Shown here: in pieces, positions 27,167-32,411 of the stretch | Layout: each line of letters starts with the position of its first letter | How positions within the stretch are numbered: position 1 is the first letter of the stretch | Assembly (NCBI GenBank): GCA_021648265.1 | Contig: JAKITD010000024.1 | Coordinates: 1 to 39,337, forward strand | Length of the DNA stretch: 39,337 nt | Reading direction: 5' to 3' | Source: Flavobacteriaceae bacterium | GTDB lineage: Bacteria > Bacteroidota > Bacteroidia > Flavobacteriales > Flavobacteriaceae | Position numbers and translations under genes: made by a program | Notes under the pieces: model-generated | The model's input: the letters and a program-made list of their open reading frames with translations, nothing else | What the model was told of the DNA's origin: nothing | The model's database searches: none

Positions 27167-27913
27167 TTATCCTTTTAAACTTGCTTTTAAGAATTCACGA
27201 TTCATACGAGCAATATTAACTAAAGTAATTCCTTTAGGGCATTCAATTTCACAAGCTCCTGTATTGGTACAGTTTCCAAAACCTTCTAAGTCCATTTGAT
27301 GCACCATATTTGTAACACGGTCAGCTGCTTCAACTTTTCCTTGAGGCAATAATGCATATTGTGTCACTTTCGCTCCTACAAATAACATTGCTGAAGAGTT
27401 TTTACAAGTAGCCACACAAGCACCACAACCAATACAAGCTGCTGCATCCATCGCTTCGTCTGCTGCGTGTTTAGATATAGGAAGCGCATTTGCATCTTGA
27501 GTATTTCCAGAAGTATTTACAGAAATATAACCGCCCGCTTGTTGAATACGCTCAAAAGCCATTCTGTCAACAACCAAATCTTTAATTACAGGAAAAGCTG
27601 CTGCTCTCCACGGTTCAATATAAATAGTATCGCCATCGTTAAACATTCGCATATGCAACTGACAAGTAGTAATTCCACGATCGGGACCGTGAGCTTCTCC
27701 GTTGATATATAATGAACACATCCCGCAAATTCCTTCCCGACAATCGTGATCGAAAGCCACAGGTTCCTCTCCAGAATTTACTAATTGCTCGTTTAAAACA
27801 TCCATCATTTCTAAAAAAGACATATGTTCTGAAATATCGGTTACTTTATAATCGACCATTTTGCCCTTGGTATTGGCATCTTTTTGTCGCCAGATTTTTA
27901 GTGTTAAATTCAT
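27167..27913 (-). CDS. sdhB: Succinate dehydrogenase iron-sulfur subunit
   Basis: The iron-sulfur subunit carries electrons from the flavin to menaquinone. Cysteine motifs for the [2Fe-2S] cluster ([12 protein letters not shown] and later CQLHM), then [13 protein letters not shown] and [14 protein letters not shown] for the [4Fe-4S] and [3Fe-4S] clusters, are all intact. The 248 residues match the B-type enzyme of Bacteroidota. It is the last gene of the sdh operon but lies 10 bases after the two inserted defence-like genes and 1736 bases from sdhA, instead of directly after it. Its expression must therefore read through the insert or start inside it. Confidence 0.96.
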
Positions 27914-27923
27914 GCTGAAATCT

Positions 27924-28358
27924 TTAATTTATATTTTCTTCAAAAGGTGTGTTTTTTAAAACTATTCCTTTCACTCCTATTAATTTAATTAAATTTCTAT
28001 ATTCTTTATATGTGTTTAATCTTTTAGGTTTCAAACCTCTTGTTGTTACAATTCTTGCATTTATAGAGTTAAATTCAAAGTATTGCTTTAAATTACTAAT
28101 TGAAACAATTAGCTGATTTAATCCCTTTTTGACATCACTCCCTTTTAGTTCAATAAAAAATAAATTATTATTAGCTTTTAATAAATAATCACATCTTATC
28201 TCTTTAGAATTTAATGGGTAAACACAGTCATCTATTTTATACTTTAAAACAACTTTATTATTTTGATTAATTCCTCTATAAATACTTTTCTTTTCTTTTA
28301 ATAAAATTATTGAATCTGTTTTAGATTCTTTACATTTATTTAATCTTTCTTTAATCAT
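27924..28358 (-). CDS. Putative PD-(D/E)XK nuclease-like small protein
   Basis: A 144-residue basic protein that I do not recognise as a named family. The central segment reads RCDYLL, 12 residues, then FFIELKG: Asp57, Glu70 and Lys72 form the D-x(n)-ExK signature of the restriction-endonuclease fold. Hydrophobic strands before and after (NLFFIEL, ARIVTT) and a helix ([16 protein letters not shown]) fit the core order strand-strand-helix-strand. Its start overlaps the end of the ATPase gene by 8 bases and its stop is 10 bases before sdhB. The pairing suggests an ATPase-controlled nuclease effector. Nuclease activity and defence role are inferred from the motif and context only; it could also be an inactive or Holliday-junction-resolvase-like relative. 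Confidence 0.6.
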
Positions 28359-29595
28359 TTTGAGTTTCTATTTCTAAAAGCTCATCAAACTCTTTATTTA
28401 TAATTTCTGAAACATTGTCTAAGTTATCCAAATTAATAATGCACTCATCAACATCAACCATATTATCAGCTTTTCCATCATTTAAATAATAAACAGAAAT
28501 ATCATTTACATCAATCCACGATTTTTTAGATATAATTTTATCTACATCATTTTCATGTTTTCCATTTTTAGCTGTGCCAATTTTGTGAGCGTAAATTAAA
28601 TTACTTAATGTTGTTAAAATATATGGGCTATGCGTTGGTAAAATAAATTGATTGTTGTGTTTGTTTATAGATTTAACTAAAAATTCTACTAATTTTTTTT
28701 GTGCATTTGGAAATAGGTTTTGTTCAGGTTCTTCAACAATAAAAGTTCTTTTCCTTTTTTCAACTTCATTATAATTTTTAACAGCTAACACAATTGGAAT
28801 GGTAGATTGATAGCCACTTGCTCCATTATGTAAAGAATGATAATTCTCTTCTTTATCTTTCTTTACAAACCCAAGACCTCTTTCATTTTTATAAGTTAAT
28901 GATAAAGGTTCTATTCTTATTTCTTTATTAAATCCTCTAACAATTCTATTTAATTTATTTAGTTCATCTTGTATAGCCTCAGAAACTAATAAATTCTTTC
29001 CTGAAGATAGGGATTGAGAAACCCTTTCGGTTGGAATAAACAATGGATTATCCATTACTTTTTTTACATTTAATCTGTAAAAATTTTCATTAGGAGACCA
29101 TTCATATCCAAATATTTTAATATTTCTATCTTCTATGTCTTTTAGTTCATCCGATTTAAGTTTCCCTAATTGATCTAAAAGTTTTGCAAAATCGTTAGAT
29201 TTAGATACAGGAGCTATTCTTGTTTCAGTTTCAAAATATTCTTTTTTATACGTTTCAACTTCATTTACTTCCTCATATTCTGTAACTAGCTTATTTTTAA
29301 ACTCAAATTTATATGATGAATTTTTATAAACTATTCTCGAATTTTTAGTTAAATAATCATATAATCCCCAATTTCTTAATCCGTCTAAAAATTGTTCATT
29401 ATCATGAAATTCATCTTGTTTATCAATCTCAATTGAATAATTTACGATATATGAAAAATATCTACATATACTTAAAACCTTAGCCACAGTGCTTTTACCA
29501 GTGGCTTGTTCACCAATAAGCACTGTAATTTTACCTAAATCTAAATCTACTGATTTAATAGGGCCAAAGTTTTTTATGATGAGTTTTTCTTTCAT
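28351..29595 (-). CDS. OLD/PtuA-like AAA (ABC-type) ATPase
   Basis: A 414-residue SMC/OLD-like ATPase. The N-terminus LIIKNFGPIKSVDLDLG leads to Walker A GEQATGKST (28-36). A variable helical and charged region (about 50-240) holds the dimer/insert part. The signature-like NGASGYQST is at 257-265, Walker B FIVEEPEQNL at 285-294 (with the D/E pair Glu287-Glu288) and the switch His in THSPYIL at 321-327. There is no TOPRIM domain at the C-terminus, unlike true OLD proteins; ATPases of this shape appear in Septu, PARIS, retron and related two-gene defence systems. It starts 54 bases after the sdhA stop on the same strand. The region is noticeably more AT-rich than sdhA, which suggests acquisition by transfer. 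System identity is unknown. Confidence 0.85.
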   Translation of the reverse strand: MKEKLIIKNFGPIKSVDLDLGKITVLIGEQATGKSTVAKVLSICRYFSYIVNYSIEIDKQDEFHDNEQFLDGLRNWGLYDYLTKNSRIVYKNSSYKFEFKNKLVTEYEEVNEVETYKKEYFETETRIAPVSKSNDFAKLLDQLGKLKSDELKDIEDRNIKIFGYEWSPNENFYRLNVKKVMDNPLFIPTERVSQSLSSGKNLLVSEAIQDELNKLNRIVRGFNKEIRIEPLSLTYKNERGLGFVKKDKEENYHSLHNGASGYQSTIPIVLAVKNYNEVEKRKRTFIVEEPEQNLFPNAQKKLVEFLVKSINKHNNQFILPTHSPYILTTLSNLIYAHKIGTAKNGKHENDVDKIISKKSWIDVNDISVYYLNDGKADNMVDVDECIINLDNLDNVSEIINKEFDELLEIETQND

Positions 29596-29612
29596 TACAA
29601 CTAAAAATTATT

Positions 29613-29644
29613 ATCTTCTCTCTTCTCTTTATTCTCTTTTCTTT
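29613..29644. repeat. Purine/pyrimidine-biased microsatellite-like tract
   Basis: A run almost entirely of pyrimidines on the plus strand (TTCTCTT-type units; AAGAGAA-type on the transcribed strand) occupies most of the 54-base gap between sdhA and the ATPase gene. It marks the left-hand junction of the inserted pair within the sdh operon. No target-site duplication is obvious. Confidence 0.5.
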
Positions 29645-29649
29645 ACAAA

Positions 29650-31665
29650 TTATTTGTACGAACGTTGTTTCAACTCAATATCATGAAACTCTAATTCTTC
29701 TTTATGTAAAACTGCATCTGCAGGTTCTCCTTTATATTCCCAAGCAGAAACGTATGCAAAATCTTTATCGTTACGCAAAGCCTCTCCTTTTTGTTCTCCC
29801 TCTTTTACTACACTTTCTTCGCGATAATGGCCTCCACAAGATTCATTTCTATCCAAAGCGTCTTTTGCAAATAATTCTCCTAATTCTAAGAAATCTGCTA
29901 CTCTTCCGGCTTTTTCTAATTCCATATTCATTTCGTTGGCTGCTCCAGGAACTTTCACTTCTTTCCAAAACTCTTCACGAATTGCTTTAATTTCAGCCAT
30001 GGCTTCTTTTAAATGCTTTTCGTTACGTGCCATTCCTACTTTATCCCACATTACTTTTCCTAAACGTTTATGGAAATGATCTACCGATTTTGTTCCTTTA
30101 TTATTCATAAAGAAATCTATTTTGTCTTTTACTTCTTTTTCTACTTCATCAAATTCTTTGGTGTCCGTTGCAATTTTTCCTGTTCTAATTTCGTCAGCCA
30201 AATAGCTACCAATTGTATAAGGTAATACAAAATATCCATCTGCTAAACCTTGCATCAATGCAGAAGCTCCTAATCTGTTTGCACCGTGATCTGAGAAGTT
30301 CGCTTCCCCTAAACAATACAATCCAGGAACGGTAGTCATTAAGTTATAATCTACCCAAACACCGCCCATTGTATAATGCGTTGCTGGATAAATCATCATT
30401 GGAGTTTCATATGGATTCTCGGCAATAATCTTCTCATACATTTGGAAAAGATTTCCGTACTTTTCTTCGATAATTCCTTGTCCTAATTTTATAATTTCTT
30501 CTTTCGAAGCATTTTTAATTCCGTGTATTTTAGCTTGCTCTTTTCCGTAACGTTCAAAGGCAAAAGCAAAATCTAAATACACTGCTTCACCAGTTGCATT
30601 TACTCCGTAACCAGCATCACAACGTTCTTTTGCAGCTCTTGAAGCTACATCACGAGGCACCAAGTTTCCGAAAGCAGGATAACGACGTTCTAAATAATAA
30701 TCTCTATGTTCTTCAGCAATTTCAGTAGGTTTTAATTTTCCTTGTTGAATTGCTTTTGCATCTTCAATCCTAGCTGGAACCCAAATACGACCATCATTCC
30801 GAAGAGATTCAGACATCAAGGTTAATTTAGATTGATAATCTCCCGATCTTGGAATACACGTTGGGTGAATTTGTGTAAAACAAGGATTAGCGAAAAATGC
30901 TCCTTTTTTATGAATTTTCCAAGCAGCAGTGGCATTCGATCCCATGGCATTGGTCGATAGAAAATATACATTTCCGTAACCTCCAGTTGCAATAATTACT
31001 GCGTGTGCTGAATGTCTATCTATTTCTCCAGTAATTAAATTGCGAGTGATAATCCCTCTTGCTTTTCCGTCAACCTTTACAACATCTAACATTTCGTGAC
31101 GGTTAAACATTTCAATTTTACCACGAGCAATTTGTCTGTTCATTGCTGAATAAGCTCCTAATAATAATTGCTGTCCTGTCTGTCCTTTTGCATAAAAAGT
31201 ACGAGAAACCAACACACCTCCGAATGAACGATTATCAAGTAACCCACCATAATCACGAGCAAAAGGAACTCCTTGTGCCACACATTGATCAATGATGTTT
31301 CCTGAAACTTCCGCCAAACGATACACATTTGCTTCACGAGAACGGTAATCACCCCCTTTTACAGTATCGTAAAAAAGACGGTAATCAGAATCTCCATCGC
31401 CCATATAATTTTTGGAAGCGTTGATTCCTCCTTGTGCTGCAATAGAGTGCGCACGACGAGGGGAATCTTGGTAACAAAATGCTTTTACATTATAACCTTG
31501 CTCCGCTAAAGTCGCTGCAGCAGAACCACCAGCAAGTCCAGTACCAACAACGATTATATCAATATTACGTTTGTTGGCAGGATTAACAAGATCAATCTTA
31601 TTTTTATAATTCGTCCATTTATCTTTAATAGGACCTTCGGGTACTTTTGAATCTAATACAGACAT
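29650..31665 (-). CDS. sdhA: Succinate dehydrogenase flavoprotein subunit
   Basis: The FAD-containing catalytic subunit oxidises succinate to fumarate. The dinucleotide-binding motif [20 protein letters not shown] is near residues 35-54, the FAD-linking region [17 protein letters not shown] follows near 71, and [11 protein letters not shown] and GHYREESV are the substrate and C-terminal motifs. The 671-residue length is typical of the B-type (menaquinone) enzymes of Bacteroidota. The protein is intact to its usual C-terminus (ELKQRSYK), so the downstream insertion did not truncate it. It follows sdhC by 13 bases. Confidence 0.97.
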
Positions 31666-31678
31666 AGTTTTGTATTAT

Positions 31679-32350
31679 TTAATGAGTAAAATGGTGAAAA
31701 AGTGCAATGAATATGAAAAGCAATGGAACAACGATTGCATACGTTTTTCCAAAATTTCTCACACATTTTGAATATTTATTGTTCATTCCCATTGACTGGA
31801 ATGCAGATTGAAATCCGTGTAATAAGTGCAATGCTAAAAACACAAAGGCTAAAACATAAGCTCCAACTCGAATAGGGTTTGAAAACTTCGCATGTAATTC
31901 GTGATAATATCTAAATTCACCATCGTGTAATCCAGACATATCTCCTTGAATATATTTTACATTAATTTCTGGAAACCAAAAATCGATAAAATGTAGCACG
32001 ATAAAAGCTAAAATAGCCAAACCACTATAAATCATGTTTCTACTAACCCAACTAGAATTAGCTGCACCATTATTCTTTGCATAACTATTTACACCGACTG
32101 CTTTTCTATTTCTTAATTCCAAAACAAAGCCCATAACAAAATGAAATACTACCCCAATGATTAATATAGGTTGCATTCCAAACTGAACTAATGGATTGGT
32201 TCCCATAAAATGAGAAATCTCATTAAAAGTATCAGGGCTACAAACCGAAATTAAATTTATGGTAACGTGCATTAATAAAAAGAATATTAAAAAAAGTGCC
32301 GAAAGTGCCATAGCAACTTTTCTGGCAATTGAAGAGGATAAGATTCCCAT
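31679..32350 (-). CDS. sdhC: Succinate dehydrogenase cytochrome b subunit (B-type)
   Basis: A 223-residue membrane anchor with five hydrophobic spans, of the single-subunit di-haem type found in Wolinella FrdC and Bacillus SdhC. Histidines that may bind haem occur within or next to spans (FLLMHVTINL, FHFVMGF, LHFIDFW, HLLHGFQSAF). It anchors SdhA/SdhB and passes electrons to menaquinone. It is first in the operon and directly downstream of a consensus promoter. Confidence 0.94.
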   Translation of the reverse strand: MGILSSSIARKVAMALSALFLIFFLLMHVTINLISVCSPDTFNEISHFMGTNPLVQFGMQPILIIGVVFHFVMGFVLELRNRKAVGVNSYAKNNGAANSSWVSRNMIYSGLAILAFIVLHFIDFWFPEINVKYIQGDMSGLHDGEFRYYHELHAKFSNPIRVGAYVLAFVFLALHLLHGFQSAFQSMGMNNKYSKCVRNFGKTYAIVVPLLFIFIALFHHFTH

Positions 32351-32379: not shown

Positions 32380-32411
32380 CAAAATTACGGCTCTAATAAA
32401 AAACAGCCAAA
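32380..32411 (-). promoter_or_regulatory. sdhC promoter, consensus Bacteroidota type
   Basis: On the minus strand, TTTG (32411-32408), a 20-base spacer and TAATTTTG (32387-32380) match TTTG-N19/20-TAnnTTTG in every fixed position. The leader to the sdhC start at 32350 would be about 22 bases. This is the best promoter match in the window and the only clear one for the whole sdh operon, including the inserted pair. Confidence 0.75.

Follow-up and report, generated by a model that had tools for sequence, protein, structure and literature searches.

An ATPase and nuclease-like gene pair of PDC-M29 type at the sdhA-sdhB junction in Flavobacteriaceae and other families: a probable defence module

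Septu (PtuA-PtuB) is a two-gene system composed of an ABC-type ATPase and a small nuclease. PtuB is described as an HNH nuclease, and immunity is reported to be lost in Walker and HNH mutants (PMC13096335). PARIS (AriA-AriB; OLD class 4) combines an ATPase sensor with a separate nuclease. AriB is described as a TOPRIM tRNase, and the ATPase oligomer is reported to hold it until a phage protein binds (PMC12409363). Many defence systems have been found by looking in defence islands (PMC13092281), and defence hotspots flanked by core genes are already known, e.g. cDHS1 and cDHS2 of Pseudomonas aeruginosa, where defence cargo lies between fixed core genes. These are described as islands (medians 26 and 6 kb) with many systems (PMC10250203). 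The systems termed “PDC” are described as phage defence candidates that are still uncharacterised (PMC12482510).

The locus presented here is situated in contig JAKITD010000024.1 of a Flavobacteriaceae bacterium (assembly GCA_021648265.1); the whole stretch analysed, 39,337 nt, is termed the window. The gene order on the minus strand is sdhC-like, sdhA, a 414-aa ATPase, a 144-aa protein and sdhB (Table 1). The ATPase and small-protein genes are intact reading frames that fill the 1.7 kb interval between sdhA and sdhB. An earlier note on this DNA placed the pair between intact sdhA and sdhB genes on one strand, with gaps of 54 and 10 bases and an 8-base overlap, and this is confirmed. An overlap of a few bases between ATPase and nuclease genes is also found in most relatives, and translational coupling across the 8-base overlap is likely. 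A second species of the genus carries both genes intact, at the same position and in unchanged order; thus the pair is not a chance arrangement. An element borne by a transposon or integrase was considered and rejected, as the interval has only the two genes and no recombinase. Sequence comparison of the stretch shows only short, imperfect repeat pairs at the insert. The pair nearest to both insert ends is an inverted 14-nt repeat with 86% identity (27894–27907 and 29595–29608), which is no better than others in the stretch.

Table 1. Features of the sdh locus in the window, and two further embedded gene pairs
Feature	Position	Strand	Remarks
sdhC-like membrane subunit, first gene of the operon	31679-32350	-	assigned by position and length only
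sdhA	29650-31665	-	upstream flank, intact; homologous gene at 13 junctions without the pair and at 12 further ones with it
sdhA/ATPase spacer	29596-29649	-	54 bases, purine-rich
ATPase gene, OLD/Rad50-like ABC ATPase (PDC-M29A)	28351-29595	-	414 aa
ATPase/nuclease gene overlap	28351-28358	-	8 bases
Partner gene, PD-(D/E)xK-like nuclease (PDC-M29B)	27924-28358	-	144 aa
Nuclease gene/sdhB spacer	27914-27923	-	10 bases
sdhB	27167-27913	-	downstream flank, intact
Embedded pairs of family f5	L174 7136-8862; L176 7422-9163		flanking genes Pfam-tested in L174

The ATPase sequence displays a Walker A motif (G28-x4-GKST, positions 33–36), EEPE at positions 288–291 and THSPY at positions 321–325. It matches Pfam AAA_15 (6e-23). 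Among 92 PADLOC matches the best is PDC-M29A (5e-43); the generic AriA/AAA_15 and PtuA models give 1.5e-24 and 3.8e-12. The predicted model is weak (pLDDT 60, with 169 of 414 residues below 50). Its fold search gave OLD nuclease 6p74 (E-value = 1.1e-7, TM-score 0.29), followed by GajA, Rad50, retron ATPases and PtuA, with TM-scores of 0.30 or less among the matches listed. A profile search of PDB sequences agrees (6p74, 8.9e-13). The ATPase shows no TOPRIM match and ends 88 residues past the AAA_15 match; membership in OLD or Gabija (GajA) was rejected, the ATPase being without a fused TOPRIM domain. The genome of the window has a second AAA-like ATPase open reading frame of 408 aa (L013, positions 1399–2625, G000:C64), with a weak match to the window ATPase (2.6e-6).

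The small protein gives no Pfam or NCBIfam match. It matches PDC-M29B (1.6e-9) at residues 30–102 only, and PDC-M56B more weakly (1.7e-4). The D-x12-ExK motif reported for it is present, at D57...E70-x-K72. Conserved residues are C9, D43, C45, C56-D57, E70-x-K72 and Q82. In the 13 nucleases from sdhA-sdhB junctions, C9, C45, D57, E70 and Q82 are found in all, and D43, C56 and K72 in 12; the exception at K72 is G1068, which has Q. At 44 other nuclease loci, a set that includes near-identical entries and one gene present twice (L076 and L214), the counts are C9 40 (with 4 gaps), D43 43, C45 37, C56 44, D57 38 (with E in the other 6), E70 44, K72 44 and Q82 41. The pattern D...ExK...Q is that of PD-(D/E)xK nucleases, and the C-D...E-x-K...Q motif of the small protein fits such a putative nuclease. 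The structural model is poor (pLDDT 51; best PDB fold match E-value = 0.14). The weak fold matches listed include Nt.BspD6I, Hjc, McrBC and HincII, together with unrelated folds. There are also weak matches to HSDR_N_2 and NERD in one member each and to Cas4_II in two. Three cysteines, C9, C45 and C56, are near-invariant beside the D-ExK-Q motif in the window protein (27927–28358) and 56 related sequences; that they bind Zn or an Fe-S cluster is a guess.

The earlier note recognised no named system in the pair. This is not right, since the ATPase matches PDC-M29A (5e-43) and the downstream overlapping small protein matches PDC-M29B (1.6e-9), although the name PDC-M29 carries no function. An unlisted system was dismissed for the same reason. 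The PDC models reportedly stem from a study by Payne and others of defences embedded in immune systems. The open-licence literature searched yielded no paper naming PDC-M29 and no account of a PDC-M29 pair being active. The two genes match the two PDC-M29 models in the same order, and PDC-M29B is matched by 12 of the 13 nucleases in alignment A3. The locus differs in that the pair lies in the sdh operon, where the ATPases form a clade of their own, and in that the nuclease covers only part of the PDC-M29B model. A second candidate, PDC-M56, is matched more weakly by both proteins (A 1.2e-19, B 1.7e-4).

The likeness to Septu lies in the two-gene plan, an ABC-type ATPase with a small nuclease, and in the PtuA fold matches. 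The window partner, however, has an ExK motif instead of HNH; no HNH or PtuB match was found in it with Pfam, NCBIfam or PADLOC, and membership in Septu was rejected on this account. The plan of an ATPase sensor with a separate nuclease is shared with PARIS, but the partner is without TOPRIM: the same three libraries gave no TOPRIM/DUF4435 or AriB match, and PARIS was likewise set aside.

A match to sdhB is found in 16 of 19 genomes of the genus. One junction (G016, L032) is cut at a contig end, which leaves 15 readable junctions. The pair is present in two of these, the window genome (G000) and G003, a Flavobacteriaceae metagenome assembly (JALWKK010000054.1); the other 13 have only 7–11 bp between sdhA and sdhB. 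A contig scan with two close sequences matched only the known relative G003. The earlier note had proposed an insertion in the sdh operon, which would be in doubt if all relatives carried the pair; its absence at 13 of the 15 readable junctions supports the proposal. It had also proposed stable maintenance, which does not hold, as the slot is empty in most relatives examined. A universal gene of the sdh operon is excluded by the empty junctions. The two carriers show 57% identity in the ATPase and 69% in the nuclease; the values are 89% for SdhB and 86% for SdhA over residues 188–671 (88% over the whole length). The SdhAB tree does not place the carriers as sisters: G000 groups with the empty G012 (support 97) and G003 with the empty G006 (support 89).

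In the family, a query of the SdhA end and SdhB matched 197 of 199 genomes. In at least 42 genomes among the matches listed, one of which (G007) is also counted in the genus set, sdhA and sdhB fall within a single match, at most about 33 bases apart. A further 80 family genomes were compared; the remaining 75 of the 197, the window's own genome included, are outside these family counts. The projected gaps in the 80 are 7–117 bases in 69 and 378–573 bases in 11; thus the pair would fit in none of them. A small gene lies in each of the 11 wider gaps, which shows that the junction takes other cargo too. Six (L110, L117, L120, L148, L149 and L169) have an open reading frame resembling the 23S rRNA intervening sequence protein, a four-helix bundle; two of these are confirmed by Pfam (~3e-29) and four are assigned by resemblance only, two of the four being short. 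Four (L158, L164, L171 and L172) have an alike membrane protein of 113–120 aa between sdhA and sdhB, with no Pfam match in the one tested, L158. The last has a gene for a 183-aa protein. Several of the six loci with the 23S rRNA intervening-sequence-like frames show, by eye, inverted AT- or purine-rich arms. The window spacer at 29596–29649 is also purine-rich (AAAGAAAAGAGAATAAAGAG...), as are the left arms of the small L161 and L169 inserts, and may have been left behind by an element of this kind.

The pair is found between sdhA and sdhB in 13 genomes of five families, G003 counted. In family f18, 8 of 147 genomes match (E-value = 1e-20 or better), six of them in the slot. A search of the class gave 12 matches in 395 genomes (1e-25), with four in the slot, the window included. 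The other families are f104 (4 of 87 genomes match, three in the slot), f78 (1 of 9, in the slot) and f117 (2 of 4, one in the slot). No sdh gene was seen within the locus DNA examined for the two other f18 matches, the eight other class matches, G1352 and G1264. The pair is on the sdh strand in all 13 slot genomes. As measured by the longest reading frames, the packing is tight: in 11 of the 13 the ATPase follows sdhA at 0–64 bases; the distance is 448 bases in G835, and G842 has an extra 229-aa gene. The distance between nuclease and sdhB ranges from an 8-base overlap to 14 bases in 12 of the 13, and G915 has an extra 294-aa gene there. Of the G915 sdhB, a 40-residue piece at the end of the locus is all that is visible. 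The sdhA of G915 is split into two open reading frames upstream of the pair (L199, 2596–3726), by a frameshift or an assembly error.

In a tree of 34 ATPases, all 13 members from the slot and none of the 21 others fall in one clade (support 96); a smaller tree, with 11 slot members and 20 others, shows the same clade (support 97). The 21 others are a selection spanning the search matches, some of which were left out of the tree, and the profiles used for searching derive from slot members. The sdhA-sdhB junction is a recurrent slot, and one ATPase lineage was found only there. Modules of this kind thus seem to have a recurring address within an operon of core metabolism.

Related pairs occur more widely. 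The PDC-M29B model matches in 13 of 296 genomes of the order and in none of 14 control genomes, and the nuclease profile in 30 of 395 genomes of the phylum. The ATPase gene adjoins the nuclease gene in 12 of the 13 order matches (the other is at a contig end) and in 28 of the 30 phylum matches, two of them with a split ATPase; the two without it are weak matches. G034 (L003) has after the ATPase a 196-aa protein that gives no match to the nuclease profiles. In L079 and L085 the ATPase is split into two open reading frames beside the nuclease frame; these are decayed copies or sequence errors. Of four scans of viral sequences, the first gave 3 loci, the second 10 with these 3 among them, the third 6 of the same loci again and the last none; seven of the 10 have a partner with the nuclease motif, L055 has a 202-aa partner without it, and no partner was found beside the ATPase in L062 and L063. 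Searches of plasmid and phage proteins gave 4 and 2 records, and each of these covers less than 80% of the ATPase.

Three contexts are picked cases, as most of the 20 neighbourhoods listed show ordinary genes. In G680 (L191, 4390–12196) the pair is part of a type I restriction-modification (R-M) operon with the order hsdM, hsdS, a macro-domain gene (DarG-like), ATPase, nuclease and hsdR. In G051 it lies beside a gene for a MobA-type relaxase. On the phage contig L034, which has a terminase gene, it directly follows a CI-like repressor gene. R-M operons, relaxases and phage repressors are typical surroundings of defence genes, and the mobile, R-M and phage contexts of these kin fit defence. The scan of neighbourhoods with defence models covered L191, L193 and single genes. 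An AbiH-like gene upstream of the pair on the gut contig L053 was discarded as a candidate, being without a Pfam or PADLOC match.

We consider the pair a two-gene defence module of PDC-M29 type, of a lineage resident in the sdhA-sdhB junction, with a probability of about 0.68. The previous proposal is supported insofar as an accessory ATPase and small nuclease-like pair has been inserted in the sdh operon and most likely serves defence. By analogy with Septu and PARIS, we propose an ATPase sensor that would control a nuclease, stop infection and be made from the sdh transcript. The pair would be co-transcribed with sdhCAB and hence always made. The OLD/Rad50-like ATPase, as an ATP-bound oligomer, would hold the small nuclease inactive. 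A phage-derived trigger would change the state of the ATPase and so free or activate the nuclease, which would cut nucleic acid (DNA or tRNA) and arrest phage multiplication, probably by sacrificing the cell, as Septu and PARIS do. The cassette itself would come and go by recombination of related bacteria within their sdhA and sdhB sequences. Such recombination at the flanks would need no integrase and would keep the cassette at one address.

The main rival to exchange through the flanking sdh genes is vertical descent with losses: the pair would have entered the sdh operon once, long ago, and then been passed down and repeatedly lost. The address would then reflect history alone, and the pair may still serve defence. 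This is possible, though doubtful. One clade at one site speaks for it, as do the groups G000+G003+G1022 and G835+G973, which are found in both the ATPase and the SdhAB tree. These trees (10 taxa) agree only in part, however. Distances in SdhAB are hardly correlated with those in the ATPase (Spearman 0.20, p 0.18, 45 pairs); G968 and G925 of f18 are 0.25 apart in SdhAB and 1.92 in the ATPase, and G1068 shows the reverse of the G968 pattern. The middle part of the ATPase differs in G968, G915 and G1193, and thus part of the disagreement is domain change, which also adds to the gap between G968 and G925. Descent would in addition require very many precise losses. We prefer exchange among sdh loci through the flanking genes, on top of some descent. 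A different reading ties the pair to succinate dehydrogenase: it would sense or guard the respiratory state, the address would be selected, and the nuclease would fire when SDH or the electron chain is disturbed, e.g. by phage. The presence of all 13 members of one ATPase clade between sdhA and sdhB in five families, with trees that are partly discordant, favours this, and the near-invariant C9, C45 and C56 could bind a metal or an Fe-S cluster. The same cysteines, however, are found in members outside sdh, the pair is absent from most junctions examined, related pairs lie at unrelated loci, and the fixed address needs no functional link, given flank recombination or descent. The reading is accordingly unlikely. 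Its more specific form is slightly less likely still, namely that the junction is a selected address at which ATPase-nuclease immunity is coupled to SDH expression or to the redox/Fe-S state, with the cysteine-bearing nuclease as effector and phage damage to respiration as trigger.

Two further explanations dispense with defence. A housekeeping or regulatory role in DNA repair or RNA turnover is suggested by the Rad50-like matches and by the location in a core operon, and Cran1 is described as an OLD-family ATPase without a defence role (PMC12796447). Against such a role stand the patchy presence, the faster divergence of the pair than of Sdh (57/69% vs 86–89% identity), the kin in mobile and R-M contexts and the match to a library of defence candidates; nor did the libraries scanned (Pfam, NCBIfam and PADLOC) give a match to a housekeeping family, a result that would have weakened the proposal of the earlier note. 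We regard this role as highly improbable. A toxin-antitoxin or selfish addiction pair with no role against phage is only a little less improbable. It would account for two overlapping genes, a small nuclease-like protein and patchy presence, but the ATPase resembles the sensors of defence systems and the pair occurs in phage and R-M contexts. From sequence alone, a toxin-antitoxin pair and abortive-infection defence are inseparable.

In comparison with cDHS1 and cDHS2, a single compact core operon here encloses one 1.7-kb cassette, whose lineage stays at this junction from family to family. Residence of one lineage in the sdh operon across families was not found in the open-licence literature with the few phrasings used. 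A defence-like lineage that keeps to one core-operon junction in five families, as an insert without a recombinase, poses sharply the question of whether the address matters for function or only for transfer. If the pair is defence cargo moved by recombination between core genes, tight core operons merit a systematic search for immune cassettes hidden in them.

The ends of the flanking genes were compared for traces of such recombination. Next to the insert, the sdhA ends of G000 and its closest relative G012 match over 91 consecutive bases, followed by 4 mismatches in the final 15. Over its last 18 bases the G000 sdhA shows 94% identity to G005, G009, G013 and G017 and 78% to G012. The first 75 bases of sdhB are 75% identical between G000 and G012, and the rest 91%; no sampled genome fits the G000 sdhB start better than 80%. 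G003 shows five mismatches at positions −16 to −11 against both G006 and G004, and no mismatch cluster at its sdhB start (95%). Equally diverged 18-nt windows number 161 of 1474 for G000/G012, 46 of 1439 for G003/G006 and 19 of 1439 for G003/G004. The mismatch clusters at the junction would fit import by flank recombination and are suggestive only. Flank values of ~33% against distant genus members are an artefact of ungapped comparison and were ignored.

The earlier note proposed that the pair uses the sdh promoter; co-transcription with the sdh genes is likely, judging by the tight, co-directional packing in 13 genomes. The promoter box consensus is TAnnTTTG. The 54-base spacer before the ATPase has no exact box, and a promoter of the pair's own in the window was rejected for this reason; one box lies inside the ATPase gene (29304–29311). 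There are 77 such boxes across the whole window where 68 are expected, so that a box alone says little. The G003 spacer before the ATPase has, by eye, one box (TATATTTG), which may belong to a promoter of the pair's own in that genome. A TAATTTTG box is found on the minus strand at 32380–32387, 30 bases upstream of the sdhC-like start; it could be part of the operon promoter, although such boxes are no commoner in the window than by chance.

Tight packing of the pair with other genes is also seen outside sdh. In two genera of family f5 it lies between glycosyltransferase-like and DUF2807 genes with gaps of 2–13 bases (Table 1), which is another operon embedding of the pair.
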